Of a stretch of DNA of 32,306 nt, positions 1-19,376 are shown piece by piece (the first letter of the stretch is position 1; each line of letters starts with the position of its first letter). Origin of the DNA: a virus. The stretch lies in the IMG/VR virus record IMGVR_UViG_3300027777_000090, positions 1-32,306 of that record; one strand, given 5' to 3'. Position numbers and translations under genes: made by a program. A model generated the notes under the pieces. The model was not told the DNA's origin and ran no database searches. It was given only the letters and a program-made list of their open reading frames with translations.

Positions 1-873
1 TCGAGCCATTGTTGGCATGTCAACACTACCACCATCTGCTTTTCCTGAAGCCTTGTCAATTGCAAAGTTTAACGCTGGAGCACCTAAAGCTAATCCAGTG
101 CCAATTGCTTTTGTAGCTGGATGTGGAATCATTGTAGCTAGTGACCCTAAACCACCAACCGCACTAATTCCAGCACCGACATAGTCTTCATTTTTATATC
201 TGTTATGCGCGTCTTGAAATTCACCTGCGCCACCGGCGATTGCCAATGGTTTAGCTGCGTATTGCAATACAGGAGCAGCGTACTTCATTACTTTAGCAAT
301 TGGCTTTTCAAAACCTAATTCAGCTAGTTGTTTTTGAACGGGTCCGTAATTTTCTCTAGCTAGTTGTGATAAATCAACCGGCGGTTTTCCTGGAATTTCA
401 GGAGTCCCAGAAATTGTATTGTAATGTGTAATAGTTGGAACACCGTTAATCATTTTAGTATTTGGAACACGTTGAGCTGGACCAGCTGGTGTTCCGGGTG
501 AACCTTTTAATGACTCTAAAGCAGCTTGAACTTCAGACTGTGTACGAACAGGCATCCCAGTTGCTTTAGCAAGTTGGTCTAATTTAACATTAGACATTAC
601 TTCAGGTGCATGAATTTGACTGTTTAAATAACTTTGCATACCACCATGGGGTTTAAAAGCGTTAACGCCCTCTCTATTCCATATTGCTTTTTTAGTATCT
701 AAAACACCCTTACCACCGAGTGCAGTTACTCCAGCGGCAGTGCCAAAGGCTACAGGATCTGCGCCCTGAACGGTAACAGTTCCCTTACGTTCCCCGACAT
801 CTGACCAACCCTCAGAATTAGGAGCATCTGCTTGGCTTTTAGGTTCAGGAACATCAATCCAATCATTAGCCAT
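1..873 (-). CDS. Putative internal virion (ejection) protein, 3' end outside window
   Basis: Open frame of 291 codons from an ATG at 873 to the window edge with no stop, so the C-terminus is missing. The ATG lies inside the last codons of the upstream gene (8-base overlap), which suggests translational coupling. I do not recognise a family. The N-terminus is acidic and polar; about residues 195-265 are Ala/Gly-rich and mildly hydrophobic, like the ejection-type proteins encoded just before it. The last visible residues contain KADGGSVDMP, an xGG motif that also occurs in three other proteins here. Position after the lysozyme-domain protein and the 1912-residue protein supports a role inside the virion, by inference only. 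Confidence 0.72.
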   Translation of the reverse strand, partial: MANDWIDVPEPKSQADAPNSEGWSDVGERKGTVTVQGADPVAFGTAAGVTALGGKGVLDTKKAIWNREGVNAFKPHGGMQSYLNSQIHAPEVMSNVKLDQLAKATGMPVRTQSEVQAALESLKGSPGTPAGPAQRVPNTKMINGVPTITHYNTISGTPEIPGKPPVDLSQLARENYGPVQKQLAELGFEKPIAKVMKYAAPVLQYAAKPLAIAGGAGEFQDAHNRYKNEDYVGAGISAVGGLGSLATMIPHPATKAIGTGLALGAPALNFAIDKASGKADGGSVDMPTMAR

Positions 874-2845
874 TATTTTTCTTTCTCATTTGTTGCTTAC
901 CAGTCACTGGGTCAATTCGGTATTCAAACTTATCATTGTCCTGCTTTGTTGCTTTTTCGTATTCGCTAGGAAATTGTTTTTTCAGTATATCTTCATACTT
1001 TGTCTCAATAGCTCTGTTTTCAGGAGATTGCAAGAAATCAAATCCACTAACACCACCAGCGTCTTTAAATTTCTTCCAAGCAGCAGCTTGTTCGTCAACC
1101 TTATCAACTCCGAGTTTAATAAACGTAGCACGTCTTAGATTGTCTTCTGCGCTAATATCTGTTCCGACACCCTTAGCACTTCTACCGACGTTCATTAATT
1201 GAGCACCAATTCTTGCACCAATACCACCAAACAAATCTTTAGTGTTTTCAACACCTAATAAGTCTGCAGCAGTATTTACTCGTTGCCGTGTCTTTGCATC
1301 TCCTGCACCAGCAGCGTAGACATCACTAATAGCACCACCAACTACAGGAAGTGCCGCCGCCATGGCAAAAGGGCCGCCTTGTTGTTGGTATGCAAACGCC
1401 TTAGGATTCTTTGTTGCCTCTTCTATAATAGTATCTGCAGCGTATCTTATTTGATCACGGTCCTTTGCTTTAGCTTGTATCGCAGTCATTACTTTAATGC
1501 CTTCTAAATCTTCTGCTTTTGTAACCTCAACATTTTTCTTGCGAATGTTTTCTTCAGCTTTTCTATTTTCTTCAACTTGTTTACTGTTGATTGGATTTGG
1601 ATAAGGCTTAACTACGGGTGCAGCAATACTAGGAGCAGCAGCAGCGGAAGGTGCAACACTAGGAGCAACAGCAGCACTAGGAGCTGCAGCAGGGGGACCA
1701 GCTGGCGCGGCAGGATAGTTATTGCCCGCTTCAAATTTAGTAATTGCAGCCTTTGCTTTTGCTAATGATTCTGGTGTGTTAGGGATCTGAGCCGTTGGGT
1801 CAGCCATGCCTAAAGAATCAGCGATTGCTTTACCGTAGTTTTGAGTTGACTCGGGGGAGTTTCCTTTAGCTGTAGACGGTGCCCAAGTTTCGGCTAATAA
1901 AGAAGGACTCATAAAGTTTCCAACCTGTGGCCCAAAACGTTCTTTAACAACTGGGCTTTGACCAGATAACTTTAATCCCAAATCATTAGTTAATGCTGTG
2001 TCACCGGCTTGCGGTGTTGGGAAAGTTCTAATTTGGCCTGTTGCAGGATCAACTAAATTACCTGGGTTGTTTTGTCTTGTACTTTTTGGAAGAGCATCAA
2101 GTCCAGAAGTACGAGCACCAGCCCCCTGTGGTAATAATTTGCTGTATCGCTGTGGCAACTTACCAGTTGCAGCATATTCTTTAGCTTCAAAAGGATTCAT
2201 ATCTAAATCTTCACCAATTTCAGCTACAAACACCGGCTTAGTTGTAAACGATGCGGCGTTATACTCTGCCTTATTTGCTTCGGTAATATCTGTTTTATAG
2301 TAGTTATCTATAATGGCTTGCTTGGCAGCAATGTCTCTTGGGTTAACTGCATTTAACGCTTTAATAACATTAGCTGGTAACCCGCCGGAACCAGCACCAC
2401 CAGCGCCGCCAACTCCACCCCTACCCATCAAAGCGTTAATACGTTTGTTGTCAGCTTCTAGCTGAAGTTGTGCGTTTTGAAATGCGGCTTGTTGTTGTTG
2501 AATGTTATATAAATTTGAACGATCCGTATTGGCCGCTTCTTCACGTAAGGCAAATGCAGGCGCTTTGTTATACATAGTCCAAGCGTTTACGTCCTTCAAA
2601 CCCTCGTTAAGTTTACGCCAAGGGTTTTGAATTTCATCAGCCAGTCTTTGCATATTTTGCAAGACATTAGCCTGACTTTTTTCATCCATTAGCATTGCAG
2701 TTTGGTCTTTTACAGCATTAAGACCGCCCTTTGTTTTAGCGGCTGCTAATTGCACGGGCAGACCCGGGATTAACCCGCTGTTGGTCATCCTTGCGTTTTC
2801 GTCTGGTAATGCTGTCTCTTCTAACGGTGCGTTTGTAATTGCCAT
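866..2845 (-). CDS. Virion-associated protein with lysozyme-like/transglycosylase domain (putative ejection protein)
   Basis: 659 residues. About residues 258-350 carry a pattern I associate with phage murein-degrading SLT/lysozyme-like domains: NNPGNL near the start, an F-x-T-P-x-x-G-x-x-A segment, then a W-A-P-S-x-x-x-G-N-x-x-E-S-x-x-Y stretch. Such domains in virion proteins open the peptidoglycan locally while DNA is ejected. Residues 380-412 form an Ala/Pro/Ser/Val linker. The C-terminal third is charged and helical-looking, with an Ala/Gly-rich segment near 490-520. It starts at an ATG at 2845, ten bases after the upstream stop, and overlaps the next gene by 8 bases. Domain assignment is from motif memory; the catalytic residue is not certain. 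Confidence 0.75.
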   Translation of the reverse strand: MAITNAPLEETALPDENARMTNSGLIPGLPVQLAAAKTKGGLNAVKDQTAMLMDEKSQANVLQNMQRLADEIQNPWRKLNEGLKDVNAWTMYNKAPAFALREEAANTDRSNLYNIQQQQAAFQNAQLQLEADNKRINALMGRGGVGGAGGAGSGGLPANVIKALNAVNPRDIAAKQAIIDNYYKTDITEANKAEYNAASFTTKPVFVAEIGEDLDMNPFEAKEYAATGKLPQRYSKLLPQGAGARTSGLDALPKSTRQNNPGNLVDPATGQIRTFPTPQAGDTALTNDLGLKLSGQSPVVKERFGPQVGNFMSPSLLAETWAPSTAKGNSPESTQNYGKAIADSLGMADPTAQIPNTPESLAKAKAAITKFEAGNNYPAAPAGPPAAAPSAAVAPSVAPSAAAAPSIAAPVVKPYPNPINSKQVEENRKAEENIRKKNVEVTKAEDLEGIKVMTAIQAKAKDRDQIRYAADTIIEEATKNPKAFAYQQQGGPFAMAAALPVVGGAISDVYAAGAGDAKTRQRVNTAADLLGVENTKDLFGGIGARIGAQLMNVGRSAKGVGTDISAEDNLRRATFIKLGVDKVDEQAAAWKKFKDAGGVSGFDFLQSPENRAIETKYEDILKKQFPSEYEKATKQDNDKFEYRIDPVTGKQQMRKKNNG

Positions 2846-2855
2846 AATTTATCTC

Positions 2856-3752
2856 TTAGTTAGGACCGTAAAGATTTTGGTCAGCAGCTGGATTAACAGG
2901 GGTTGTTGATGGATCATACGGCGAAACAGGGTTTGGCATGTCACTGTTATTTGAAGTGTTCAAATTGCTAAACCAAGTTCCTAAGTTTTTACCTACATTG
3001 GTTAGTGCACCACCAAGTCCCAACGTGTTTAATAAAGTGTTACCTGCCGACGATACAGCACCAATTTGACTTAACGGTGACATTTGGTTTTGCTGTGCTA
3101 CAGTACCGGGAACACTAATGTCGTTAATTAAGTTTGCGTAACTTCCAAGGTTTTGGAATGGTGCGTTCATCTGAGTATTACCAGCTGTCAATTCGGTGCC
3201 CAATTGCTGGTTAAGTACATTACCTAAACCAGTTCCTGCCTGCACACCAGTTGTTTGGTTTTGCAATGCGGACTGCATTTGTTGAGCGGCTAAGTTAGCA
3301 AACGCGTCGGCCCTGGCTTTATCAACCGCAGTATCACCACGTAAACTACCAAAGTTTCCAGAGCCGATATTAGCACCCTGAACTGGCGCCATATAATTTG
3401 GCATTAACTGGTTAAGCTGTTGGTTTTGTGCCTGAAACAATCCACCCATTGCCGTGTTGGTATTTGGGGTTACTTGGCCATCAGCCCCGGTAATCCAAGG
3501 ATTAGCAGCACCAGCAGCAATTTGACCTAAAGAACCTTGTGCTTGGTTAAAAGCATTATTAGGGTTTTGCAAAGTGTTTACGGCTTGCTGCCCAACTGTA
3601 TTCTGAAAAGCCGGCGCGGCACCAAGTGCTTGACCTGCTCCAGTTACAATACCCTGTTGAGCCGCGTCGTACCATGACGGTAGTGTGGTCTCTTTTACAT
3701 ATGTATCGGTTAAAAAATTGTTTAAACCGGTTGATCCTGTTGTTCCAGCCAT
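2856..3752 (-). CDS. Putative DNA-ejection/internal virion protein, Gln/Asn/Ala-rich
   Basis: 298 residues, rich in Gln, Asn, Ala and Gly with almost no charged residues except near residues 130-165. The stretch around GSGNFGSLRGDTAVDKARAD followed by Gln-rich helix resembles small internal proteins of environmental short-tailed phages. A Gly/Leu segment near 240-255 is hydrophobic and could insert in a membrane. The ATG overlaps the stop of the 1912-residue gene by one base (TAATG) and the next gene follows after ten bases, so the three are probably co-expressed. Ejection role is inferred from composition and order; no enzyme motif is visible. Confidence 0.68.
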   Translation of the reverse strand: MAGTTGSTGLNNFLTDTYVKETTLPSWYDAAQQGIVTGAGQALGAAPAFQNTVGQQAVNTLQNPNNAFNQAQGSLGQIAAGAANPWITGADGQVTPNTNTAMGGLFQAQNQQLNQLMPNYMAPVQGANIGSGNFGSLRGDTAVDKARADAFANLAAQQMQSALQNQTTGVQAGTGLGNVLNQQLGTELTAGNTQMNAPFQNLGSYANLINDISVPGTVAQQNQMSPLSQIGAVSSAGNTLLNTLGLGGALTNVGKNLGTWFSNLNTSNNSDMPNPVSPYDPSTTPVNPAADQNLYGPN

Positions 3753-6700
3753 TATGCTCTCACTTTACGTTTTGCTTCTAATAAGTAACCTAGCGCACCC
3801 TTACTATCCGGTGGCAATCCATTTTTATTTGCACGGTTTTTGTGTGATCTAATTGTCTTTAAAAATTCATCAAGTATAGATGCACCACTGTCATTACTAC
3901 CATTACCCAAAGATGATACCACATCGGCTGGTATTACAAATTCGCCGTTTGCTAACATAGCCGGAATACTGTCGCTTGTGCCATCTCCGTCACCTTGAAC
4001 GTAACGGTTTTCCATTGCATTCAAACCACCTTCACTAAAAAATTGCGGGTTGTGTCCTTCAACTTCACCTCCAGTGCTTAACATTGGTGAGTTAGCATTT
4101 ACATTTAAACCAACAAAAGGCTTATGAAAAGAAAATTGTTTTCCTTTCATTTTAACTTCAGTGGCACCTGGATCAAACGCAGGATTCGTGTCTTGAGCAC
4201 CCCCGGCGGCCATGTGTACAGCACCACCTTGTGCTGCAGCTAAAATTTGCTTTAATACCGCATCTGGATTATATACAGGTGGTGTGTAGGTATACTGTTG
4301 CAAGTTATATTTATCTGGTAAAAAAGATGCTTGATCTTTACCTTTAACAAAGTTAGAAACAGGAGAGTAAGCAGCATCACCAGGGCCAATACTAATGTTA
4401 GAGCCTGAAGTAGCACCAGTCGAACTACCAGCGGCTAAACGCATTAAACCTCCAGAAGCAGCAGCTTTTAATTGGTCGTCTACATTAAATGGTTTCATAG
4501 GTATCACATTGCTCGGTTGGGTTGAATTAATAATGTTCATCTGATTTTGTAAAGGTAGAGCATGTATCCTACCTTTAGTTCTGTCTTCCTGTAAATCTGG
4601 CGGATTAATACGTTTTTTCTTTTTACTAACTGTCGGCACTGGAACAGGTACAGGCACCTTTGGAGTACTAGGTGGTTTACTTACAGGTGTTACCGGCGTT
4701 ACCGGCGTTACTGTAGGTGTTACCGGTGTTACTGTAGGTGTTACCGGTGTTACTGTAGGTGTTACTGTAGGTGTTACTGTAGGTGTTACTGTAGGTGTTA
4801 CTGTAGGTGTTACTGTAGGTGTTACTGTAGGTGTTACTGTTGTAGTTAATGGCTGCACTAAAGGCTGTGTCAAAGTCTGAGTTGCCGTTTGTGTAGATGG
4901 CAACGTAAGAGTTTTCGTTAACGGTTGTGTTAATGTTTGCGTTAGCGGTTGTGTTAATGTTGATGTGTCAGTCTTTGTCGCTGTATCAGTTGCAGTGTCA
5001 GCTGCTGTGTCAGTTTTTGTTGACGTTTGTGTAGACGGACCAGCGTAAATCAAATTTCCTCTAGTATCAGTTTGCGGCTGAGTCTGATTTTGTGGAACTG
5101 TTAAATCTGTACCAAAAAGCGTGTTGTTGTTAAACAATCTACTAATATCTGGTTTTTCAGCAAAAGGCAATCCTTCAGCTGTTTGTGTCTCTGTACTTCT
5201 TTGTGCTTGCGGTACCAAGGCATTGTTGTCTAAATTAATACCAAGTAAATCATGCAGAGTTACTTTAATATCTTTTATTAAAGTATCATTATGCTGCGTG
5301 TCACTTTCACTATTAGATTGTGTTTTAATAACTGGCTCGTTAGTTGCCAAAGATCCAAACACATCAGAAAACGTAATAGGATTCCCAGCGGAATCTTTTC
5401 CTAATACTTTACTAGCATCTAATTTACCTGTTTCAGTAGTGATGTTGCTATTAATTTGATCAACTAATTCAGATCCAATAGATTTAATTGCCATCGAATT
5501 TGCTTGGTCTGCAGGAACACCTACCTGTTGTAATGTCTGTGAAATCGTGTTTTGTGTATCTTTAACAGCAGCTATTTGTTCAGAAGAAGGTGGTGGTAAT
5601 AGCCGTTGTGGCCCTTCCAATAACTTAGGCGCCTGCCAAGAAGATTGGCTTTCGCTTGCTGGTCCTGCTAATTTTAAAAACTGATTTGTATCTGCACTTG
5701 TTTCAACTTTTGAAGGTTGAAAACTTACGGCGATGGCAGAATTTACTGCTGAAACCATTCCAATTGGGGCATTCGTAGCTGCTGCAATATTTGCTTTATT
5801 TAGGTCAAGTTCGGCATTTGGGTTAACTGCTTTTTGTTCTATTAAATTATTAATATAAGAATAAAGATACGTTGCCGAATACCCACCACTAGCAATCGCA
5901 GTAATGCCTTTTCCTGTTAACTCCATCATGTCTACTGCATAACTTTTTAATAACGAAGCATCCACAATACCGTGGAGCACCATCGTTGTTATGCCTTGTA
6001 ACGTGCCACCAAGAACTGCTGTATTTATTGCGGTGCTTACATCAGTACCTTTAGCTTTTAATTGGTCATAAATTGTTCCCATGCCGCTAAGTCCGGCATC
6101 TAAAAAATTAAGGCCAGCGTCTGCTGTTACCATAGTCTTATAGGCGTCAAATGTGCCAGTGATTTTAGCAGCGACACCAGCCAGTTTTGCTATGCCTAAA
6201 AAGCTAACATCTTCCAGTACTTCAGGACCGCCGCGCCATGCAAAACTTAATGGGTTCTCAATGTAGGCGCGAAGTGCAGTAATTTCTTTCATGCCGGGTT
6301 CGGCATTTTTTATCATTTGGTCAGTAGCAGCAGTTGAGTCTTTTATTTTTTGCTGCACCTCTGGCGATACTGAATTTGTACCAAAGTCAGATATGGCTTT
6401 ACCTGCTAAATACACTGCATTTTCTCTACCGAATGCTGAAATTCCTAATGCAGAGAAATTTTGAAATACTTGGCCAACCATGTTGAATACAATTCCTTGC
6501 GCAACTTGCGGCATTGTCTTAGCCGCTTCTACAAGAGCATCCGTAACTTCTTTTGTGGCAGTTAACATACTTGGAACTCCTGGCACAGCAGGATTTTCCA
6601 CAAAATTCATAAACGATTTTTCAACAGCATCAAACGAAGGTATACTGCTTTTAATATTTTCTAAAGTTGGTAAATTTGTTGCTGAAATAGTTTTTGTTAA

Positions 6701-9490
6701 ATTGTCAGCAGCTGATGTAACTTTATCAGAAAGTCTATCAGTAAATCGTTTTACGCCGCTCTCAAACATAGGAGCTGTATCTTTAGCAAAGTCTATAGCC
6801 TCTTGGAATGTCTTAGGTTTTGGTGTTAGACCTTCACTTAAAATCTGCATAGCTGTTTTAGCTGGCTCTCCTGGTGTAGCAGCAGAAGGCGGCGGTGCAA
6901 GATCAGTTGTGTATTGTTTTCCGTTCCATTCAAACGTTTTAGCTCCCGAAGATCTAGCATCTTTAAATGCAGTACCAAAATTATCTGCAGTAGAAGTAGT
7001 TTCTTTATCTTTTGGTAAAGAACCAGAATAGGCGTCTGCTTTATCTTTAGGAATCTGGTACAAGTCTTGCAAGTTACGTGAAATCTCATCTTTTGACAAG
7101 CCTTGAACTTGCATTTCTTTTGTAACGTATTTTAAATTGTCTTGATTGTCACCCGTTAATAACTTAGCTGCATTTACAAATGCAATTGGATCACTAGAGT
7201 TATTTGATAATTTTTCTACTACATTATTAGCAACAGTATTTTGGTAGTATCCTTCAGCTGTTTTTGGGTCAACATTATATATAGATGCTATATTAGAAAC
7301 AATATCGCTTCTAGGTATATTTTGATCTACCATAGTATTAACAACAAACTGCATGTTTGAAGTCGGATCGCCGGTGTAGTTATTTTGTCTAACAAATGTA
7401 CCAAGCGGATCAGGAGACGCATTAATATACGGGTCGACAAGATTCTTTTGTAATACAGTATCAACTGCGCCAGTGGTAAGTCCAACATTTTCTGTAGTAG
7501 ATGGCGCTGCAACTTTTTCTGGTGTAGTTAATGCACCAAGAATAGTTGGAATGTTGCTAATAAGTGCCTGTTGTACGTTACGACCATTTAACGCGGCAGT
7601 TGTGGTAACTGAGGCTATACTACTTACTGCAGCAATAGCGGCCTGCGTTGCCGTAGGATCAAGTTTTTCTACTAATGTTCCAGCATAGGCCCCAACACCT
7701 GAAGCAGCTAAACTAGTTCCCAGTACTTGAAGGAAATTTTGACTATTAACAGTACCTGTAGCCACACCGGCAAGTGTCATAGCCGCTGTATTCACAACAA
7801 TTTTGGCTAACTTATCTGGATCTAAACCTATAGTGTTTGCAACATTTGCAATTGTTTCTGAGCCAAACAAGCCAGATGCAACACCTAACTGTGATACCGA
7901 ACCACTAACTGCGCCACTAATTGCTCCTTTCAGAGCACCTTGTGCAACATCACCACCATACGCTGCAGAGGTTATTGCACCCATGCCAGCGCCGATAATA
8001 GAAGTACTAGCAATTGTGGCTGCAGCAACCTCACCTGCAGTAGCTGCAGCTGCGGCAGCTGCGCCACCTAGAAGTTCTGTTGCAAGTAATCCAGACGCTG
8101 CTCCGCCTGACATAACTGTTGCTACGGCTATACCGACAAATGCAAGACCCGGTTGAACATCTTTGGCAAAATTAAATCCACTACCACCGTTAGCTGCGTT
8201 ATTAGCAATCATTTTCTGATTTTGAACGTTAGCTTCTACAGCGGCTTTATTAACAATTGAGTTAATATCATCAACACTAATACCAGATTGTTGCGCAGCA
8301 GGAGCTATTGCTTTAATTTGCTCTATGACAGGTGCAGCTCTTTCACTAGTATTTTGTCCAGTCTGCCAACCAACTTGTTTACCTAAAAAATCTAATTCTG
8401 CTTTGTAGTATGCTTGTGGAGCGATGGCCGCAAGAGAATCAAGTGCCTTTAAATCAGTATCATAATTAGCATTTGTAGTGTAATTAGTAAATACTTGGTC
8501 TTTTAATTGTTGGGCAACTGTATCGTAATATTTATTAGGATCTGTTGCTTTTAAATTATATAGACTTTGTTTGTCTGTTGCGTCTAAATTTAATTTTTCA
8601 ATGTATGTATCACGGGCAGCTGTTCCTGCTAATAAAAGTTTGGCATCTGCACTTTGGCTATCGTATACGTTGCCAGTTTTTTGGTCAATGTATTGGTATG
8701 TATTAATTCTTTCACCATTGGCGTCATATGTCTGTGAAACAACTTGTGGTATCCACTGGCTTGGATCTTCTGGAGTATTCTTTGATTGGTACTCTGCACT
8801 AGCTATAAGACCAGCCGCAATTTGATCTGGTGTTTGTCCAGCAAAATTAGCTTTACCCGTTGGGTCAGCATTTCGACCTAAATATTGCTGGTACAAAGCG
8901 TCTATTGTATCTATTGGTGTAGCATTCGGGGCGCCACCGTGAGTACTAGCATATTCTGCACTACCAGTAAGGCCCGCAGTGACTTCTGCTAAACTTTTCC
9001 CAGTCCAAGTATCGGCACCAGAGGGGTCAACGCCACGGTTTAAATATTGATGGTACAGCTGGTCCACCGTGGCTTGATCAACACCACCACCACCACCCTG
9101 TGGCCCGTTCTGAACTGGCGTTGGATTACTGCCACCACCGCCATGAGTACTAGCATATTCACCACTACCTAAAATACCTTGAAGTACTGTGTTGTAGTCT
9201 TGACCGGCCCAAGTAGAGGCACCAGATGGATCAACACCACGGCCTAAATACTGTTGGTACATCTGTTCCAATGCACTTTGGTCAACACCGCCACCACCAC
9301 CTTGATCTGGAGGAGGGTTACCATTGTCCCGATTTAAATCTAAAGGAGCACTTGGTGCGGGGCCCTGATCAGGTGCAGGTGCAGCTGGGGCATTGTTAAA
9401 TTCAGGAGGTGCGGGTTCGACCGTTACAGAGCTTTCTGCAGGCGCGTCATCTACCCAAGTTGCACTGTCTCCGCTGTCTACCCAACCCAT
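3752..9490 (-). CDS. Giant virion protein with three DUF4214-like repeats and GTSDSIPAML motif
   Basis: 1912 residues, the largest gene here. Three N-terminal repeats (about 74-118, 142-186, 196-238) follow the DUF4214 pattern YQQYLGRxxDPxG...EYxS, separated by Gly-rich linkers. Residues about 440-540 are long Ala/Gly-rich hydrophobic segments that could cross a membrane. Residues about 1480-1607 are a Thr/Gln/Leu then Thr-Val-Thr-Pro repeat stalk. Near 1830-1860 is GTSDSIPAMLANGEFVIPA, a motif known from the C-terminal parts of phage tape-measure and other large virion proteins. In a short-tailed phage a large internal or ejection protein is the best inference. The leader between 9490 and 9560 carries a terminator and a candidate promoter, so it may head its own transcript. 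Confidence 0.8.
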   Translation of the reverse strand: MGWVDSGDSATWVDDAPAESSVTVEPAPPEFNNAPAAPAPDQGPAPSAPLDLNRDNGNPPPDQGGGGGVDQSALEQMYQQYLGRGVDPSGASTWAGQDYNTVLQGILGSGEYASTHGGGGSNPTPVQNGPQGGGGGVDQATVDQLYHQYLNRGVDPSGADTWTGKSLAEVTAGLTGSAEYASTHGGAPNATPIDTIDALYQQYLGRNADPTGKANFAGQTPDQIAAGLIASAEYQSKNTPEDPSQWIPQVVSQTYDANGERINTYQYIDQKTGNVYDSQSADAKLLLAGTAARDTYIEKLNLDATDKQSLYNLKATDPNKYYDTVAQQLKDQVFTNYTTNANYDTDLKALDSLAAIAPQAYYKAELDFLGKQVGWQTGQNTSERAAPVIEQIKAIAPAAQQSGISVDDINSIVNKAAVEANVQNQKMIANNAANGGSGFNFAKDVQPGLAFVGIAVATVMSGGAASGLLATELLGGAAAAAAATAGEVAAATIASTSIIGAGMGAITSAAYGGDVAQGALKGAISGAVSGSVSQLGVASGLFGSETIANVANTIGLDPDKLAKIVVNTAAMTLAGVATGTVNSQNFLQVLGTSLAASGVGAYAGTLVEKLDPTATQAAIAAVSSIASVTTTAALNGRNVQQALISNIPTILGALTTPEKVAAPSTTENVGLTTGAVDTVLQKNLVDPYINASPDPLGTFVRQNNYTGDPTSNMQFVVNTMVDQNIPRSDIVSNIASIYNVDPKTAEGYYQNTVANNVVEKLSNNSSDPIAFVNAAKLLTGDNQDNLKYVTKEMQVQGLSKDEISRNLQDLYQIPKDKADAYSGSLPKDKETTSTADNFGTAFKDARSSGAKTFEWNGKQYTTDLAPPPSAATPGEPAKTAMQILSEGLTPKPKTFQEAIDFAKDTAPMFESGVKRFTDRLSDKVTSAADNLTKTISATNLPTLENIKSSIPSFDAVEKSFMNFVENPAVPGVPSMLTATKEVTDALVEAAKTMPQVAQGIVFNMVGQVFQNFSALGISAFGRENAVYLAGKAISDFGTNSVSPEVQQKIKDSTAATDQMIKNAEPGMKEITALRAYIENPLSFAWRGGPEVLEDVSFLGIAKLAGVAAKITGTFDAYKTMVTADAGLNFLDAGLSGMGTIYDQLKAKGTDVSTAINTAVLGGTLQGITTMVLHGIVDASLLKSYAVDMMELTGKGITAIASGGYSATYLYSYINNLIEQKAVNPNAELDLNKANIAAATNAPIGMVSAVNSAIAVSFQPSKVETSADTNQFLKLAGPASESQSSWQAPKLLEGPQRLLPPPSSEQIAAVKDTQNTISQTLQQVGVPADQANSMAIKSIGSELVDQINSNITTETGKLDASKVLGKDSAGNPITFSDVFGSLATNEPVIKTQSNSESDTQHNDTLIKDIKVTLHDLLGINLDNNALVPQAQRSTETQTAEGLPFAEKPDISRLFNNNTLFGTDLTVPQNQTQPQTDTRGNLIYAGPSTQTSTKTDTAADTATDTATKTDTSTLTQPLTQTLTQPLTKTLTLPSTQTATQTLTQPLVQPLTTTVTPTVTPTVTPTVTPTVTPTVTPTVTPTVTPVTPTVTPVTPTVTPVTPVTPVSKPPSTPKVPVPVPVPTVSKKKKRINPPDLQEDRTKGRIHALPLQNQMNIINSTQPSNVIPMKPFNVDDQLKAAASGGLMRLAAGSSTGATSGSNISIGPGDAAYSPVSNFVKGKDQASFLPDKYNLQQYTYTPPVYNPDAVLKQILAAAQGGAVHMAAGGAQDTNPAFDPGATEVKMKGKQFSFHKPFVGLNVNANSPMLSTGGEVEGHNPQFFSEGGLNAMENRYVQGDGDGTSDSIPAMLANGEFVIPADVVSSLGNGSNDSGASILDEFLKTIRSHKNRANKNGLPPDSKGALGYLLEAKRKVRA
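4681..4840 (-). repeat. 12-bp tandem repeat encoding Thr-Val-Thr-Pro
   Basis: A 12-bp unit (GTAGGTGTTACT on the plus strand) is repeated about a dozen times with a few variants. It translates in frame as TVTP inside the 1912-residue protein and is continued by a Thr/Gln/Leu-rich segment. The repeat is likely an extended, flexible stalk; slippage may alter its length. Confidence 0.9.
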
Positions 9491-9559
9491 TTATTAGCCT
9501 TCTTAATGCTTGATTGTTATACCTATATTAATGCAACAAAAGCGCATATTGCGCCCTTT
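9491..9559 (-). promoter_or_regulatory. Candidate phage promoter element A
   Basis: On the minus strand GGGCG (9556-9552), 16 bases, TGCATTAAT (9535-9527), then ATAGG and TATAAC (ending near 9516). The GGGCG-to-TGCATTAAT spacing is identical to copies B and C, but the TATAGG part sits directly against TGCATTAAT instead of three bases away. It lies just upstream of the 1912-residue gene with about 26 bases of leader and an AGAAGG site. Function is inferred from recurrence. Confidence 0.55.
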
Positions 9560-9560
9560 T
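9538..9560 (-). terminator. Hairpin terminator after 82-residue gene
   Basis: On the minus strand AAAA-GG-GCGCA is paired with TGCGC-TTTT around a 3-base loop, with GG bulged, followed by G and TT. It begins in the stop codon of the 82-residue gene and shares its GGGCG block with candidate promoter A, so stop and start signals overlap. Partial termination is likely. Confidence 0.6.
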
Positions 9561-9808
9561 TATGAACTAGGACCGTTTATAATCTGTGTAAAGTCTCTAG
9601 CCCATTCCTGCCATTCGGTGTACAACTCTGGGTTAGGAACTGGATAGTTTGCAAATGTTGCTAATTGGGCTACTTGCGCGGCGGCTATCATCCACTCTTC
9701 TTCTGGGTACTGCCCCAGGGGTTCCTTGCCGTAGTACATTACTAGGTTACCGTTGTAATCTTCCCAACTCATGTACGCCGGTTCAAACGGAAAAAAATCT
9801 TGTATCAC
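9560..9808 (-). CDS. Small conserved phage protein (MSWEDYNGNL type), function unknown
   Basis: 82 residues with a recognisable core: SWEDYNGNLV..YYG near the N-terminus and TEWQEWARDF...NGPS at the end. I recall similar proteins next to gp10-like genes in many environmental phages, with no known function. The start is a GTG at 9808 that shares one base with the TAG stop of the gp10-like gene, so translation is probably coupled. It is aromatic and acidic with no membrane segment or signal peptide. Its stop codon runs into a hairpin terminator. A structural or assembly role in the neck or tail is inferred from position only. Confidence 0.75.
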   Translation of the reverse strand: MIQDFFPFEPAYMSWEDYNGNLVMYYGKEPLGQYPEEEWMIAAAQVAQLATFANYPVPNPELYTEWQEWARDFTQIINGPSS

Positions 9809-11958
9809 TACGGTCTTTCGTCACCAAATTCTGCGGTGATTAAATTACGACCCATCTCAAAGTTGCCATTTAAAGTATTAGATATGAACTGCAGTCTAAC
9901 CAATCTATGCTCAACTCGCAAGTCAATTTTACCCGTATCTTGCGTAAAAAAGTATGGGCCAGAATTTTCTTCATATTGACCACCAGCAAACTTACGACCT
10001 AGTATGGTTAAAGACATAATACCAGTTTGTATAAAGTTTGGCTCAACACGACGCAAGTGCATACGACGATTAATACCTTGCAGTGCATCTTGACTTGGAC
10101 TGCCTGTCAACCAGCTAATGTCGCTTGTTGTTATGCTAGAGTATACGGCAGTTTCACCATTAACGCTTATTTTATTTTGACCAAATTCATGCTGCCAAAT
10201 AGTATATCCACCATCTAGGCTATAAACCAATGTGCCAACAGAGGGAACACTGGTAAATGATGTTGTGGAGGTAATTAACGTAACACCAGGTGTACCAATA
10301 GTCGTGTTAAAGATATGGATACTAGATGCTATGATAAAGACTGGCGCGTTTTTATTATTACTAAATGAAAACGCATCACCGGGGCTAAGTAACGGTGTTT
10401 GATCGCCATCTAAATAAAATTGAGTGTTTTCGTCAATTGGATCTTCTGATGGGGGAGGCGTTATAATAGGCTGTGCGTTATGGAACAAGGGATCATAGTC
10501 CCACCCAGCCCAAATTGGTGTAGGGAAGATCTCTGTGGTGTATCCACATGAGCGTCTTGCGCCTTCTGCCTGACCAGCGTCATACCACAGCTTGTCTTTT
10601 ACGTTGTAAATAATTGCGTCGGTGCACTCGGTGTTAGTGCCACGGGGGTAAAAGAACCAGATCTCGTTGTAGCGTGGTATCTTAGTAGCCCACACCTTTT
10701 GACGCTGTTCGTAGTTTAAATTGTTAAATAAGTAGTTTACGTTCTTGTCATTTGGTAGTACTGCTACAGAGCCATTGTACAAGTAAAAACGGTCAACACC
10801 CATCCAAAAAGATGTGCCATCCATCTCAACGACTGAGCTAGACGACATAATAGATATTTGACTAGAGATAATATCATAGCGCCAATAAAGCGGTGCAGCG
10901 CCAGTAAACGATACACGTATCAAGCTGTCCGTTGCCCAAAATAGCCCCGATGGCGCATTAGTACCGCCACGTACAGTGGTTCCCTTTACAATCTTAGACG
11001 CTGCTACGTTTGTTTGGTTGGCTAGTGGGCCGTTCCAATCATAGAAGTTTCTGAGGCTGTACGCGGTCGATGACAGATCAACGTTGTTATTGGCTATATA
11101 CCCGTTTGATCCATACACAAAGATAAATGGGTATAGCACACAAATACCGCCGTCAACTGATACTGGCGTATACGTTGGGTTTTGCCCCATGCTGTCTGAT
11201 AAACCTGAAAATGTCCACTGATTACCAGAAACAGGTGTAATAGCACCAACTAATACTTGGCTCTTTACACCGTTATCAATGTTTGCTAAGTTTTTACCTG
11301 GGTGCGCAAATACGGATAGATTACCCCCCAATGGACTAAACTGTACGTCAAACTGCCACAGGTTTCGGTATGGACCATCTAACAAGTCTGGTTCAAACAC
11401 AGGCGCGTTATCAATGTATACGTAGTCTGGTGTCTCAGAAAAACTAGCCGTTAACGTTACCGTTGTATTTGGTGTGGTAAATGTGGAAGATTGTACCTCG
11501 TATACTGTAGCCGAATTTGTTTGATCAAATATAACCTTAACACCAGCTGTAAACGCTGACGTAGCATCACCAACAATATCAAAGTCTGGCGATGAATAGG
11601 ATGCTACAGGGACAGTAACTTGACCCGGTAATATGCTAACCGTAAAGGGTCCACTACCTGACCCAATGGTTGTACCGGTAGTGAACGCATCTAACCCGAA
11701 TGCGTTACCAGCAAAAATGTAGTTAACGCCTTGGTATGGTTGTGCAATCATGCCACGGTAGATACCGGTAAAGCTACTGAATAGCGTACGATATCCGCCT
11801 ATTTTCTTGGGATCACCACGCTGAAAACGGCACCATACACCATCAGTAAACTGATCGGCTTGAAATATAGTACCATCTCGTTTAATCCCTGGCGGGATAG
11901 CTAGGGAAAAAATCTGAGTATATTGCGTGGTATCTTGTGCAATATTATCAGCTGCCAT
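9808..11958 (-). CDS. P22 gp10-like packaged-DNA stabilisation / tail hub protein
   Basis: 716 residues. The N-terminal segment FTDGVWCRFQRGDPKKIGGY (about residues 37-56) matches the signature of the P22 gp10-like family, where a short 'R-F-x-x-G-x-P-x-K-x-G-G' block starts a beta-rich hub protein. In P22, gp10 closes the portal channel after packaging and links adaptor to needle and spikes. The rest is beta-rich with many Tyr/Phe/Trp and ends in a short strand-rich tail. It overlaps the fibre-like gene upstream and the 82-residue gene downstream by one base each. Family assignment rests on the N-terminal motif and on neighbouring adaptor genes. Confidence 0.72.
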   Translation of the reverse strand: MAADNIAQDTTQYTQIFSLAIPPGIKRDGTIFQADQFTDGVWCRFQRGDPKKIGGYRTLFSSFTGIYRGMIAQPYQGVNYIFAGNAFGLDAFTTGTTIGSGSGPFTVSILPGQVTVPVASYSSPDFDIVGDATSAFTAGVKVIFDQTNSATVYEVQSSTFTTPNTTVTLTASFSETPDYVYIDNAPVFEPDLLDGPYRNLWQFDVQFSPLGGNLSVFAHPGKNLANIDNGVKSQVLVGAITPVSGNQWTFSGLSDSMGQNPTYTPVSVDGGICVLYPFIFVYGSNGYIANNNVDLSSTAYSLRNFYDWNGPLANQTNVAASKIVKGTTVRGGTNAPSGLFWATDSLIRVSFTGAAPLYWRYDIISSQISIMSSSSVVEMDGTSFWMGVDRFYLYNGSVAVLPNDKNVNYLFNNLNYEQRQKVWATKIPRYNEIWFFYPRGTNTECTDAIIYNVKDKLWYDAGQAEGARRSCGYTTEIFPTPIWAGWDYDPLFHNAQPIITPPPSEDPIDENTQFYLDGDQTPLLSPGDAFSFSNNKNAPVFIIASSIHIFNTTIGTPGVTLITSTTSFTSVPSVGTLVYSLDGGYTIWQHEFGQNKISVNGETAVYSSITTSDISWLTGSPSQDALQGINRRMHLRRVEPNFIQTGIMSLTILGRKFAGGQYEENSGPYFFTQDTGKIDLRVEHRLVRLQFISNTLNGNFEMGRNLITAEFGDERP

Positions 11959-13226
11959 TAGAACTTCCCGCCTGATATTAACTGTGCGTTCAGTGTCGCC
12001 TTAACGTTAACATATGGTTGTAGTGCATTTGACCCATCAATGTCAATTAACTCTGTGCCATTGGCAGACAATCCTAGTACTCCAGTACCAGCTAAATACA
12101 TACCAGTGGAGGTATCACTATTAAACGAAAACGCTGGAGCAGCGGCTGTGCCATCTGCTGCGTAATAAACACCCGTTGTACCTTGGTTTAGCAAGAACAA
12201 GTTTGTTCCGTCACTAAGTACTGTAACAATCGCACCTGTTGGTATAGCTATCGGAGGCTGTGAGCTACCAGTAATCTGAAACGTTATGTCATAGCCCACT
12301 TGGTTTGTGTTATTAGACCAGACATAAATCTGGGTAATCGCAGGAAGGACTACGTTAAGTGTCTGTGTCCTAGTACCAGTTTGTGCAATGTATGTCTGGA
12401 TAATTGGGGCATACGATACTAAGTCTAGTGTGTTACCAGTGATAGCATCAACGTCAAACGTCTCAGCAGTAAACGCAGAACTTGATGGCGCTGTTAATCC
12501 AACGGTAATAAAACCGCCAGTTCCAATATCATAAAAAATAAAGCCAGAATCGCCTGGGTTTACTACAATAGAAGACACACCGTTAATCAACGCCGGTGAT
12601 ACGGGGATAATGCTTAGTGACCCACTACCAGCATTCCTAAAGCCAATGTACCATCCAGGGGATAGTGTGAAAATGTTTGGTAAGTTAAATGTTCCAGCAC
12701 CCGCACTCCACACAAATGTAGCGGCACGGCTTGCGTCGTTAACGACGGGAGTTGCTGTTATATCAACAATGTTCTGTGTCGTAGCTAACTTACCGCTAAC
12801 GGTAGTTAGTCCAGCGCCAGCCAGTGTTGCTGCGTCAGCAACTGATGTACCTGCGCCGAATGTTACATTTTGCCAAATACCAGCTTCAGTAGAGTTGTCG
12901 CTAAGGTATACATACTTAGCTAAACCAACAGCTAAAGTAAAAGACCCACCACCAGTAAAATCAGTAATAACAATATCATAGGCGCCTAAATTACGAAATA
13001 AAATATCAGCACCGACAGTACCTTGATTGCCTGCAGGTAACGCAATAGTTAAACTACCAGCAGTTGGGGTGCAGTCAATAATACGTGCTGCCGGCACTTG
13101 TGGTGGATTGACAGTAGCGGGCCAGTAAAGTTGCTGATCTGTACTAAACTCAAGGGCGAAATAGGATACATCTGTTGGGGTAACAACAGTGCCTGTAAAT
13201 GGGGATACGTAAACTGGAGTTGTCAT
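11958..13226 (-). CDS. Fibre-like structural protein in the neck cluster
   Basis: 422 residues, beta-rich, with few charged residues. Two segments look like internal repeats of a small sandwich domain: GTVGADILFRNLGAYDIVIT near 68-87 and a similar 'P-G-W-Y-I-G-F-R-N-A-G-S-G-S-L-S-I' pattern near 190. The C-terminal part has AFSFNSDTSTGMYLAGTGVL, a motif common near the end of phage tail-fibre proteins, followed by LSANGTELIDIDG. The ATG starts three bases after the adaptor gene's stop and the end overlaps the gp10-like gene by one base. A fibre or tail appendage attached to the neck is the best inference; receptor unknown. Confidence 0.68.
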   Translation of the reverse strand: MTTPVYVSPFTGTVVTPTDVSYFALEFSTDQQLYWPATVNPPQVPAARIIDCTPTAGSLTIALPAGNQGTVGADILFRNLGAYDIVITDFTGGGSFTLAVGLAKYVYLSDNSTEAGIWQNVTFGAGTSVADAATLAGAGLTTVSGKLATTQNIVDITATPVVNDASRAATFVWSAGAGTFNLPNIFTLSPGWYIGFRNAGSGSLSIIPVSPALINGVSSIVVNPGDSGFIFYDIGTGGFITVGLTAPSSSAFTAETFDVDAITGNTLDLVSYAPIIQTYIAQTGTRTQTLNVVLPAITQIYVWSNNTNQVGYDITFQITGSSQPPIAIPTGAIVTVLSDGTNLFLLNQGTTGVYYAADGTAAAPAFSFNSDTSTGMYLAGTGVLGLSANGTELIDIDGSNALQPYVNVKATLNAQLISGGKF

Positions 13227-13229
13227 GTT

Positions 13230-13844
13230 TTAAGGTTCCTGAACCGTAGTATTTCTATCAATGCGGCGAGAGTTATCTTCTTTTTTGAGCGCTGCAATTG
13301 AGTCTGTATAGTATTGTTTCCATACTGGCAACTTATCCAATGCCTTTAAGTAGCCCTGAGCTTGGAGTAATGCTCCGTATAGCATTGCCTGTGGTGCTAT
13401 TGCAGTCCACAGATTTTGTTGATTAGTTTCGTCTAACGGCTGAATCTCAGCATAATAAATAATTTCAACTGGGTATGATGTATCTGGTAACGGTGCAAAG
13501 TTCCAGTTGCTGTAGTCGTAGTCGGCGTAATACTTAGGTACACCAGCGGTAGATTCGGATAAGTACTGAGACACATAGTCTTGGCTACGCAACAGTATAG
13601 GCTGACCGTTTACCTTCATGCTGACCGTCTTGCGCCAGCGAGATGGTTTGTTAAGTACTGTCTGGTTCTCAGCTAAGTTGGTCTCCACCACGATCAACTG
13701 TAAAAACGTTTTAAGTTCTGCGGCGATTGACGACTCTGCAAGCGCAATTAAGTTAGGAATCTGCGCAATAAAGTCAGGGTCATTCCTTTCCATATATTGC
13801 TGGATATTAAGAACCAGCGAATTATAGTTCATTATTACGCTCAT
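13230..13844 (-). CDS. Head-tail adaptor-like protein (SU10-adaptor type)
   Basis: 204 residues. The N-terminal pattern 'YNSLVLNIQQYMERNDPDF...IPNLIALAESSIAAELK' is typical of phage head-tail adaptor proteins of the SU10-like group, which form a ring beneath the portal. The middle, around residues 95-140, has the short beta segments and aromatic residues expected for that fold, and the C-terminus is helical and basic. The first ATG at 13844 overlaps the upstream stop in an ATGA arrangement; a second ATG four codons later is an alternative start. The gene sits between a second adaptor-like gene and the gp10-like block, which agrees with a neck role. Confidence 0.68.
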   Translation of the reverse strand: MSVIMNYNSLVLNIQQYMERNDPDFIAQIPNLIALAESSIAAELKTFLQLIVVETNLAENQTVLNKPSRWRKTVSMKVNGQPILLRSQDYVSQYLSESTAGVPKYYADYDYSNWNFAPLPDTSYPVEIIYYAEIQPLDETNQQNLWTAIAPQAMLYGALLQAQGYLKALDKLPVWKQYYTDSIAALKKEDNSRRIDRNTTVQEP

Positions 13845-14908
13845 CTTGTGTAGTAACTTATATTAGGTTGGAAATAGATTGGTGACTTATCGCGGTCTTC
13901 TTCGCTTGCGTTAAGGAATAGTTTATTAGCCTGCAGCTCAAGGTACTGTATGCGAGGCATGTCAACGCCAGGTAACTGCATTGATAGCTTATGTGATAGT
14001 TGTGCCTGAATGCATGGCAGCCAACGATCTGGTACGTAGATCTGGTTCGTTAATGAACCAACGTCTTCCATCTGCTTTTCAACAACAAGCTGAAACATTT
14101 GGAAGTCGTTGTTTGGTACTGGCCATAGGTACATCGATGGCTCGATGGTCCTATCAAACCAGTACTGTAAAGAACGAACGGACGGGAATTGTTTGTTTGG
14201 TAGATTCCAGTAGTCGTCACGATTAAGTCGTGCCAATGGAATTACCTGTTGGCTGGTTGAGAATACAATTTGCCGAACTGCGAATGTGGGTGCTACTGTC
14301 TCACGTAAACGGTAGTATAAGTGATTTGGAGTAATGGCGATGTTGTAGTACGCCCACTCACGGTCTTTTAGTGTCGTCTCTGGTAACTGCTCTGACAACA
14401 CCCAGTTAATGCCATCATCACTGACTTCATACGCAAAGTTGTACGTGGTGGTAGTTCCAGTATCATTAAAGCCATTAAAGCCAACATAGAAGACTGGCTG
14501 TGCTTGTTGGTACTGTAGGCCTAAGTAATTCTTTTCTATTGTAGACTCGGCCACTAAGTTTAAGTTTTGCTCAAACGCTGCGGGGGCTAATGGGTTATCT
14601 AGTGGCAAGTACTCTGATGCCTGTGAGTTGATGATGTAGACCCAGTTAGACTCACGCACATCAATGACCGTACTTGGGAGGTATAATTGTTGTTGGGCCG
14701 TTAACGCACCGTACAACTGGTTCTCCAAGAGCCACAGGTTGACACCCATATTAGACAGATTTTGCAGGTTATAAAATAGCGCCTGCTTACCAGCGTCAAT
14801 GTACTCGGGCGTTATTTCTTCTGCCGTCTTGCCAGCATCACGAAACGCGTACGATATTAACTGGTCAACATTAATGGTTGTCTTGCCAGTGGTTCCACTA
14901 TAAGCCAT
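13841..14908 (-). CDS. Neck/adaptor-like virion protein
   Basis: 355 residues. The N-terminus (TTGKTTINVDQLISYAFRDAGK..EITPEYIDAGKQALFYNLQNL) has the helical character of phage neck adaptors. The middle (about 140-215) looks like an inserted beta domain: 'F-A-Y-E-V-S-D-D-G-I-N-W' followed by 'Y-Y-R-L-R-E' resembles a small discoidin- or fibre-like sandwich. The C-terminus returns to the adaptor style with 'PDRWLPCIQAQLSHKLSMQLPG'. It overlaps genes on both sides by 1 and 4 bases. I infer a structural neck ring or accessory; I cannot place it exactly, and the inserted beta domain may be surface exposed. Confidence 0.65.
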   Translation of the reverse strand: MAYSGTTGKTTINVDQLISYAFRDAGKTAEEITPEYIDAGKQALFYNLQNLSNMGVNLWLLENQLYGALTAQQQLYLPSTVIDVRESNWVYIINSQASEYLPLDNPLAPAAFEQNLNLVAESTIEKNYLGLQYQQAQPVFYVGFNGFNDTGTTTTYNFAYEVSDDGINWVLSEQLPETTLKDREWAYYNIAITPNHLYYRLRETVAPTFAVRQIVFSTSQQVIPLARLNRDDYWNLPNKQFPSVRSLQYWFDRTIEPSMYLWPVPNNDFQMFQLVVEKQMEDVGSLTNQIYVPDRWLPCIQAQLSHKLSMQLPGVDMPRIQYLELQANKLFLNASEEDRDKSPIYFQPNISYYTR

Positions 14909-15258
14909 TATTTTTTATTTCCGCGTTTTGTTTTTCCGCCTTTTTTAAGCAGTAACAAATTGCCACGTATTTGTGGAGGCGCCATTTTTCTTAATTTACC
15001 ATCGACAGGAGAAGTCATCATGTCAGTTGGTTTTCTATAAGGCATTTCCACTGGTTGCATAACAGTATTATCTGGAGCACCCATAGCCCGATTTAACTTA
15101 ATATCTGGTGTAGCTGGGCGTGGGGCTCTCTCAAACGCTGTAAGTCCAGTAGGATTTTTTTTCGCATAAGTTGCAAGGTCATCCATGGTAACATCGCCAC
15201 CGGCTTGATAGTGTTTACCTTCACAAGCCATCTTGGTGTTTTGTTTAAAATCTTTCAT
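14908..15258 (-). CDS. Small basic phage protein with xGG motifs
   Basis: 116 residues, strongly basic at the C-terminus (GGKTKRGNKK). Near the N-terminus it has HYQAGGDVTMDDLATYAKKN, one copy of an xGG motif that recurs in the 255-residue neighbour and in the 1912-residue protein. The middle is Pro/Met-rich (RPATPDIKLNRAMG...TVMQPVEMPYRKPTDMM). No domain is recognised. The ATG lies one base after the stop of the 55-residue gene and the TAATG end overlaps the adaptor gene. A DNA-associated or scaffold-like role inside the head is possible from its charge, but this is speculation. Confidence 0.7.
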   Translation of the reverse strand: MKDFKQNTKMACEGKHYQAGGDVTMDDLATYAKKNPTGLTAFERAPRPATPDIKLNRAMGAPDNTVMQPVEMPYRKPTDMMTSPVDGKLRKMAPPQIRGNLLLLKKGGKTKRGNKK

Positions 15259-15259
15259 A

Positions 15260-15427
15260 TTATCTACCCCGGCCAGCGGCTCGTTTAATTACTTTTTTAG
15301 GGAGGTTATTACTTGCAAAACCCGACTTAACAAATTCTTTGCCAACTTTTTTAGGAATTCCCAAAGTGCTTTTACCTTCGGCTGCAGCATACATGGCTCC
15401 TTGTTGTGCCTTAGATTTAATTGGCAT
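15260..15427 (-). CDS. 55-residue basic protein, SKAQQ-type small phage protein
   Basis: Read directly from the sequence: ATG at 15427, 55 codons, TAA at 15262-15260. The protein begins [18 protein letters not shown] and ends [12 protein letters not shown]. The SKAQQ start recalls small basic phage proteins such as the DUF3008 group; this is a resemblance only. It fills the gap between its two neighbours exactly, with two bases before and one base after, which supports it being real despite its size. It is rich in Lys and Ala with no membrane segment. Function unknown; its neighbours are also small and basic. Confidence 0.7.
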
Positions 15428-15429
15428 GA

Positions 15430-16197
15430 TTAGCAGCCCTTTTTAACTTTACCACCACGTTTTTGCATTGGCATACCAGTTGTATTACCCATGGTGTCAA
15501 CCGGAGCTGGTGCTGGTGCTGGTGCAGGTGCTGTTGGCTGTGCTGCGGCTATTGCGCCTTGTTGTGCTGCCATTGGAGCTCCTAAGCCACCTAAAAGCGC
15601 GGCTTGTTGTGCTGCTTTTTTCTTTGCAATCATGTCCATACGAGCCTGTGCAATACGGTTCTGTTCTGGTGTGCCCATTACATTGTTACGTAATGAGGTT
15701 CCAGCGTCACGTATTGGATCCAAGAGTGCATTAGCATCTGCCATTGGGCCACTCATACCACCGTCAGCCATTTTTTTAACTGATTTGCCGCCGCAAAATT
15801 TAGCGGGTGTATTTGCTGGTTTAACAGCGGGGGCGCTTGCTGCAGTTGCCTTGGTTGGCGTGATTTGTTTTACTGCTTTAATAGCATCTAAGTCACCAGA
15901 TTTTTTCTTGGCTTCGTATACGTTAGTTACGTTGCCACCGGCTTTGTATTTTTTAACGGTTCCGCAGTCTTTCTTAGCACGGCCGCCCTTACGTAATTTG
16001 GATAGGTCAGTCTTTTCACCAGGATGCTCTTGTTTGTCATGCATGCCGATTGCTTTTTTAACAACGGCTTTGTCTTGGGCCATGTCAGCTTTTTCTTCAG
16101 TCTTGCGCTCGCGTTTTTCGTAGTTAGCGATTTGTTTTTGTACTGAGCCGCCTTCTTTAAAGTGCTGCATCTTAGGTAGTTTAGTAAAGCCTTCCAT
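15430..16197 (-). CDS. Lys-rich protein with five or six xGG motifs
   Basis: 255 residues, very rich in Lys, Ala and Met. It carries repeated short blocks of one aromatic or aliphatic residue, two residues, then Gly-Gly: [40 protein letters not shown] and MQKRGGKV. Residues about 20-60 are a charged helix, and residues about 215-235 are an Ala/Pro linker. It has three Cys, each next to or near Gly/Lys, the last being the final residue. The gene starts at an ATG (16197) after an AGGAAT ribosome site and is the first after candidate promoter B. No enzyme motif is seen; a structural or DNA-binding virion role is possible. Confidence 0.72.
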
Positions 16198-18938: not shown

Positions 18939-19376
18939 TTATTCCTTGTTTAAGTGCACTAATATTTCTTTAGGTTCTACAAATAGGTCGCTTTTGTGTT
19001 CTACAAACTCCCACCATAGGAATTGGTTTTTTGCTATCTTCGACCGATCTTTTAATAGGTTGGTGTTCTCTGGGTGTCCAAATATCAGCGGGTCTGATAC
19101 GGACCATAAAACAATCCCCGGCTTATTCTCATCCCAGCCAAGGTGTTGGAAAAAACTATCACAGCTAATCCATGTACGACATTCTTGTAGCAGACCACGC
19201 AGCTCACTGATCGGTAGATTCTTTCTAAAGTCAGGGACTAGCTGCTCTTCACCCTCAATACCGACTTGAATGATTGGCTCTGTGATCTGGCTAATTAGTT
19301 CTTTCCAATACGGATAGTTCTTTGGGTTCTGCTTTTTACTTAACAACGCTTTTGCGTAGGGTGAGATGATGATCAT
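18939..19376 (-). CDS. GT-B (GT9-like) glycosyltransferase C-lobe as separate ORF
   Basis: 145 residues. PYAKALLSKKQNPKNYPYWKEL, ISCDSFFQHLGW, GIVLWSVSDPLIFGHPEN and the end resemble the C-terminal (nucleotide-sugar-binding) half of heptosyltransferase-like GT9 enzymes, in which a D-S-F-F-Q-H block and a following G-K-P-G-I segment form the donor site. On its own this half lacks the N-lobe. The N-lobe-like piece is at the C-terminus of the upstream ORF, and the two genes overlap as ATGA. An AGGAAG site lies eight bases before the ATG. It could work in complex with that ORF, or the two could be one split gene. Confidence 0.65.
   Translation of the reverse strand: MIIISPYAKALLSKKQNPKNYPYWKELISQITEPIIQVGIEGEEQLVPDFRKNLPISELRGLLQECRTWISCDSFFQHLGWDENKPGIVLWSVSDPLIFGHPENTNLLKDRSKIAKNQFLWWEFVEHKSDLFVEPKEILVHLNKE

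Follow-up and report, generated by a model that had tools for sequence, protein, structure and literature searches.

The window analysed here is a 32,306-base virus record (IMGVR_UViG_3300027777_000090), and all of its main genes lie on the minus strand. Several of its virion-type proteins contain a short motif built around a Gly-Gly (GG) pair, which the first-pass annotation described as recurring in at least four otherwise unrelated proteins and as a possible cleavage, packaging or docking signal. Comparison with related loci revealed that this motif, hereafter the GG tag, recurs on predicted packed and delivered proteins of aquatic bacterial viruses, which suggests a shared loading or docking signal. 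The tagged genes of the window and the motif copies in them are as follows.

15430..16197 (-), 255-residue Lys-rich multi-GG protein; family position conserved in relatives
16126..16197 (-), N-terminal block of the 255-residue protein, common to the 116-residue protein (profile match)
16141..16161 (-), tag FKEGGSV of the 255-residue protein
15976..15996 (-), tag LRKGGRA of the 255-residue protein
15928..15948 (-), tag YKAGGNV of the 255-residue protein
15751..15771 (-), tag MADGGMS of the 255-residue protein
15445..15465 (-), C-terminal tag QKRGGKV of the 255-residue protein, followed by KKGC
14908..15258 (-), 116-residue protein with tags at both N- and C-terminus
15187..15258 (-), N-terminal block MKDFKQNTKMACEGKHYQAGGDVT of the 116-residue protein, related to the 255-residue block (19.3 bits, best decoy 3.8)
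15190..15210 (-), tag YQAGGDV of the 116-residue protein
14929..14949 (-), C-terminal tag LKKGGKT of the 116-residue protein, followed by KRGNKK
3752..9490 (-), 1912-residue giant protein belonging to the ejection-type gene module; DUF4214 at residues 174-236
4442..4462 (-), AASGGLM of the 1912-residue protein
4217..4237 (-), AAQGGAV of the 1912-residue protein
4061..4081 (-), LSTGGEV, first GG ahead of the C-terminal module; spacing varies in relatives
4019..4039 (-), FSEGGLN, second GG ahead of the C-terminal module
3905..3994 (-), tape-measure-type module GDGDGTSDSIPAMLANGEFVIPADVVSSLG (phage-record and PDB matches)
1..873 (-), polyvalent-type last-gene protein, N-terminal part; lacks a stop and is open at the contig end
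22..42 (-), KADGGSV, first linker tag of the last-gene protein

Every string quoted in the first-pass annotation was found in the sequence. Five of the "five or six" copies attributed to the 255-residue protein fit the motif shape, and the sixth, KFCGGKS, has the GG pair without that shape. A shuffle test that left GG runs intact and shuffled the remaining residues showed that the broad motif is not commoner than chance in the window proteome, with 12 copies found versus 11.5 expected (p = 0.48). The narrow form, [FYM]xxGGx[VMT], which was picked after inspecting the window, was enriched only in the 255-residue (p = 0.005) and 116-residue (p = 0.05) proteins, these p values being uncorrected for the number of proteins. 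The extremely Gly-rich 1179-residue protein at 23002-26541 (-), with 115 GG, was excluded from these statistics. The reported recurrence therefore holds for the strings themselves, but neither for an excess over chance in the window nor for the full unrelatedness of the proteins.

The first 24 or so residues of the 255- and 116-residue proteins form a common block. When a profile was built from residues 1-26 of the 255-residue family, it found the 116-residue protein of the window, aligned from residue 1 (19.3 bits), and scored its relatives at up to 34.7 bits, compared with 3.8 bits for the best reversed decoy, so that the claim of no other similarity is wrong for this pair. Only three non-family matches to a C-terminal profile of the same family exceeded the best decoy, and C-terminal tags are therefore not recognisable from that profile alone. 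In the family logo, hydrophobic residues occupied positions -6 and -3 relative to the first G as well as the second position following GG; on inspection, the second residue after GG was V/A, not G, and there was no conserved Asp, so the RTX calcium-binding nonapeptide (GGxGxDxUx repeats) was not recognised in this family. The AlphaFold model of the 255-residue protein (mean predicted local distance difference test score, pLDDT, 60; predicted template modelling score, pTM, 0.23) consists of helices separated by GG segments mostly of low confidence. Searching known phages with this protein, one relative and a 449-residue protein of the MW202545 lineage returned self-matches only.

Relatives of the 1912-residue protein have a conserved C-terminus and differing N-terminal ends. 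All four quoted strings are present in this protein, which also contains the tape measure C-terminal sequence GxGTSDSIPAxLxxGEFV. The module matched the PDB tape measure proteins 8zdo/8zdq (E 1.8e-10) and 8rk3 (E 7.6e-5); the GTSDSIPAMLANGEFV module ends the tape measure proteins of many siphophages, with 397 phage records matching at E values of 1 or below. Because LSTGGEV and FSEGGLN run into this conserved module, they are not free-standing motifs there. In an AlphaFold model of the C-terminal 125 residues, pLDDT was below 50 for residues 1-52, which include both GG sites, and the model was modest beyond them; a fold search with it was uninformative because the model was poor (best E 2.2). 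A literature search in an open library turned up no paper containing the module sequence or this motif, and Pfam, PHROGs and NCBIfam searches with the giant and last-gene proteins gave almost nothing except DUF4214 and ART-PolyVal.

These results bear on an account by ordinary homology and chance, in which the 255- and 116-residue proteins are paralogous in their terminal parts, the 1912-residue sites belong to a tape-measure-type module and the remaining copies are Gly-Gly background. The N-terminal similarity of the pair, the module matches and the lack of an overall motif excess in the window all agree with it, but homology among tagged proteins does not explain the family-level and boundary enrichment found in relatives, and we consider this account improbable.

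To survey the relatives, we used about 240 related loci in four locus sets, comprising 125 protein families; members within a family are not independent in the motif statistics. Four of the 125 families were individually enriched, all of them virion-type and adjoining virion genes. The Lys-rich 255-residue family was the most strongly enriched (4.00 narrow motifs per protein versus 0.25 expected). In the 80 loci fetched with the 716-residue gene as anchor, the gene for the Lys-rich protein is again found upstream of the 355-residue gene, and gene order is kept in the longer loci. A multi-GG protein is encoded close to the capsid gene in each of three unrelated lineages. The pelagiphage gp79 family, encoded beside the portal gene, had 1.96 versus 0.19 motifs per protein, the MW202545 449-residue protein 7 versus 0.55, and the MinM2 multi-GG protein 2 versus 0.11. 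Downstream of the portal gene, about 5.5 kb from its start, pelagiphage loci such as L188 (9052-9195) also encode a Lys-rich multi-GG protein of 46-65 residues. KFADGG-type tags occur, in capsid-anchored loci, on a protein encoded between terminase and portal, one member of which contains an inserted ART-PolyVal domain; in L260 (2503-3684) and similar loci, this intervening protein repeats LKTPQQMLxEEAG segments alongside the tags.

Summed over all families, N-terminal enrichment was not significant (4.6 versus 4.1) and C-terminal enrichment was moderate (8.7 versus 3.6, standard deviation 1.8), which makes the tag a feature of few families. Among relatives, enrichment was strong in those few families only. 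An excess in the capsid family (0.91 versus 0.18) was not counted, as it looks like a single conserved site repeated among homologues. Among the head and ejection genes of T7 and P22, no ejection protein carried the narrow motif.

In polyvalent-type effectors, tags sit at module boundaries and at C-termini. The 1010-residue protein of locus L339, which sits in the ejection gene block, has two ART-PolyVal (PF18760) stretches; YAPGGKV-type tags stand ahead of the first stretch and between the two, and KKRGGKIKKKKK closes the protein. Searches returned eleven loci for this protein and twelve for a related 983-residue protein, the two sets overlapping. The proteins of L341-L362 are mosaics whose modules, other than the named ones, match no named family. 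In L342 (5872-7746), DUF6321 (PF19846, 1.1e-19) is fused at the C-terminus of a polyvalent-type protein, directly after a GG tag. In ART-PolyVal proteins of the window lineage, tags flank or follow the domain; the ART homologues of the crAss-like phage cr130_1 and the jumbo phage Tunturi_5 contain none of these motifs.

We then compared module boundaries with tag positions in 39 non-redundant proteins, taking boundaries backed by at least two alignments and counting tags within 8 residues. Of 110 alignment boundaries, 42 lay near a tag, compared with 13.9 ± 3.4 at random (maximum of 1000 randomisations, 29). An earlier test on a mixed protein set was weaker (168 versus 104), and the non-redundant set was substituted after that result was seen. 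The full tag shape was found at 35 of 115 GG sites at boundaries or C-termini versus 15 of 245 elsewhere (p = 3e-9). Both of these tests draw on data that also served to discover the motif.

A plain flexible linker is the strongest rival explanation. GG segments without any partner would separate independently folding modules, each unfolding to thread the portal and tail channel, and the terminal copies would be remnants of shuffling. Tags do lie between modules and in segments of low model confidence, and for crAss-like phages it has been suggested that cargo leaves the particle in a partly unfolded state (PMC10172136). Generic linkers, however, are not expected to keep an aromatic residue or Met before GG and V/I after it, as boundary GG sites do far more often than others, and tags also end single-module proteins and recur several times in the Lys-rich protein. 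We regard a linker function alone as rather unlikely. The low-confidence predicted structure of the tag regions suggests disorder, and these regions are probably flexible.

The tag comes and goes within ejection-type families. The frame at 1-873 is open at the contig edge and has no known effector domain by Pfam; its 95%-identical relative in L012 continues past the window end and there carries another tag, HLNYKKGGNV. Although their sequences differ, the last genes of the block frequently terminate in tags, for example FKKGGKAKKK, LKKGGKVK or FMKAQGGLAKIKKK. In the 659-residue family, 7 of 32 members have a tag near the N-terminus, most of these starting MAGLDxIKxF[DE][DE]GG. At the position of the 298-residue gene, the MW202545 lineage has a family in which 13 of 28 complete members end in a C-terminal GG tag, absent in the other 15; its homology to the window gene is inferred from position and a similar start. 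Two members of this ejection family, one tagged and one untagged, share 97 identities over 182 aligned residues of their N-terminal parts. In L095-L174 of the same lineage (e.g., L103, 11554-), Cys runs (CCCSCCC-like) immediately precede a C-terminal GG...GCAST tag in many members of an ejection-type family and are absent in others. The remaining features of the window are the following.

866..2845 (-), 659-residue ejection-type protein; window copy without the N-terminal tag
2856..3752 (-), 298-residue ejection-type protein; weak DNA-ejection match, E 0.007
9808-11958 (-), phrog_3287 virion protein (PHROGs match)
13230-13844 (-), SU10-type adaptor (PF24175)
19373-21587 (-), two genes within the virion gene block
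19373-20347 (-), first of these, glycosyltransferase-like by inspection
20331-21587 (-), second of these, with glycosyltransferase and methyltransferase matches
27065-30136 (-), 1023-residue fibre-like protein with long GYSGISGYSG repeats
31740-32306 (-), C-terminus of the capsid protein

The SU10-type adaptor and phrog_3287, as neighbours of the 1912-residue gene, suggest a short tail. The 1912-residue protein resembles tape measure proteins in ending with the C-terminal module GTSDSIPAxLxxGEFV (8zdo/8zdq, 8rk3) preceded by GGxV. Unlike them, it is encoded in a podovirus-like ejection gene block, and proteins lacking the module carry GG tags as well.

Boundary placement also resembles polyprotein junctions, as expected if a protease cut at GG during head maturation or after injection and released single modules. 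For phage JBD30, a cut at residue 1066 of the tape measure protein, just downstream of the module, has been proposed (PMC11445458). However, cutting at C-terminal tags would free just 2-10 residues, and 11 relatives of 31-80 kb, whose records may be fragments, yielded no S78, S49 or C39 peptidase; S77 (T4 gp21 type) was not searched. A phage protease gene upstream of the capsid gene, a sign of cleavage named in the first-pass annotation, did not emerge either, as no separate protease gene was recognised between terminase and capsid, other peptidase families not having been searched genome-wide. The absence of three protease families from the relatives' records and the many tags at the last residues make cleavage less likely, and we consider it very unlikely.

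The Lys residues around many tags might instead mark basic tails that neutralise packaged DNA. The KKGGKVKK-like context in the 255-residue family and in C-terminal tags fits such a role, and in T4 internal proteins Lys alone was seen contacting DNA phosphates (PMC3012670). Against this, the motif-rich pelagiphage gp79 family is largely acidic, with most motifs lacking flanking Lys runs, and the hydrophobic positions near GG are conserved in the 255-residue family. We give DNA binding little credence.

We tentatively prefer the reading, held at somewhat less than even confidence, that the GG motif is a short linear docking tag on proteins destined for the virion interior. It is best written [F/Y/M]-A/K-x-G-G-(K/S/A)-[V/I/A] and was found only on internal or ejection-type proteins and on polyvalent-type effectors whose genes adjoin virion genes. 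The sequences show that it is restricted to few virion-type families, that it is placed at module boundaries and C-termini, and that members of one family may have or lack it; that a partner binds it, what this partner is, and that loading and ejection follow are parts of the docking reading that we infer. The shared signal originally put forward is thus supported in part: docking or packaging fits the placement, the family restriction, the gain and loss, and the absence from effector homologues of two phages with other delivery systems, whereas the cleavage variant is poorly supported. In the proposed mechanism, tags would sit at the terminus of a single-module protein, between fused effector modules, and in several copies in the Lys-rich virion-block protein. 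While the procapsid assembles, they would be bound by one shared partner, which may be scaffold, portal, capsid lining or the Lys-rich multi-tag protein, and otherwise unrelated cargo would so be gathered for ejection along with the DNA.

Several observations weigh against a docking tag. The boundary test is partly circular, since flexible linkers are often Gly-rich and alignment-ending and the data tested had already served to refine the tag definition. The ART protein of phage F116 has 3 motifs versus 1.07 expected and is therefore not a clean control, and some homologues are without tags, so the tag is not strictly required. The window alone has no overall motif excess, enrichment is restricted to few families, and the motif is absent from most virion proteins. 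The virion location of the tagged proteins is read from gene order, and neither virion proteomics nor binding or genetic studies were found for these viruses.

Among known systems, the closest working analogue of the GG tag as a putative docking element is the capsid-targeting sequence (CTS) of phage T4, which lies at the N-terminus and is cut off by the T4 prohead protease. Found on the internal proteins IPI-III and on Alt, the CTS is a short sequence and the sole element common to these diverse injected proteins, directing them to the prohead core (PMC3012670). The GG tag is likewise a short element common to otherwise unrelated proteins (last-gene, polyvalent-type and Lys-rich, the 255- and 116-residue pair being related), their internal location again taken from gene order. 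It differs in that several copies may be present, placed at the N- or C-terminus or between modules, and in that the three protease families were not found in the 11 relatives. Extreme N-terminal placement as in the CTS was not observed, the tag being N-terminal in only three to four families and C-terminal or internal in the others; because placement differs, membership in the CTS family is not claimed. Encapsulin cargo-loading peptides are short, often C-terminal, and bring unrelated cargo into an HK97-fold shell (PMC10960027). The GG tag is similar in being short, often C-terminal and on unrelated putative cargo, with capsid binding here hypothetical. Polyvalent proteins (Iyer et al. 2017, PMC5512222) are similar in being modular predicted injected effectors beside virion genes with ART-PolyVal domains; a text search of that paper found no linker, glycine or packaging-signal motif.

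How phages select the proteins that they pack and inject is known in detail in few systems. A more far-reaching proposal, which we think doubtful, is that the tag is a transferable code, several aquatic podovirus-like lineages marking every injected module with the same GG tag and a common virion partner reading it; effector modules could then be swapped, fused or split with packaging retained. Should the tag prove to be a loading signal, sequence alone could reveal injected effectors in uncultured virus genomes, and the packaging of counter-defence proteins would be testable with short peptides and reporters.

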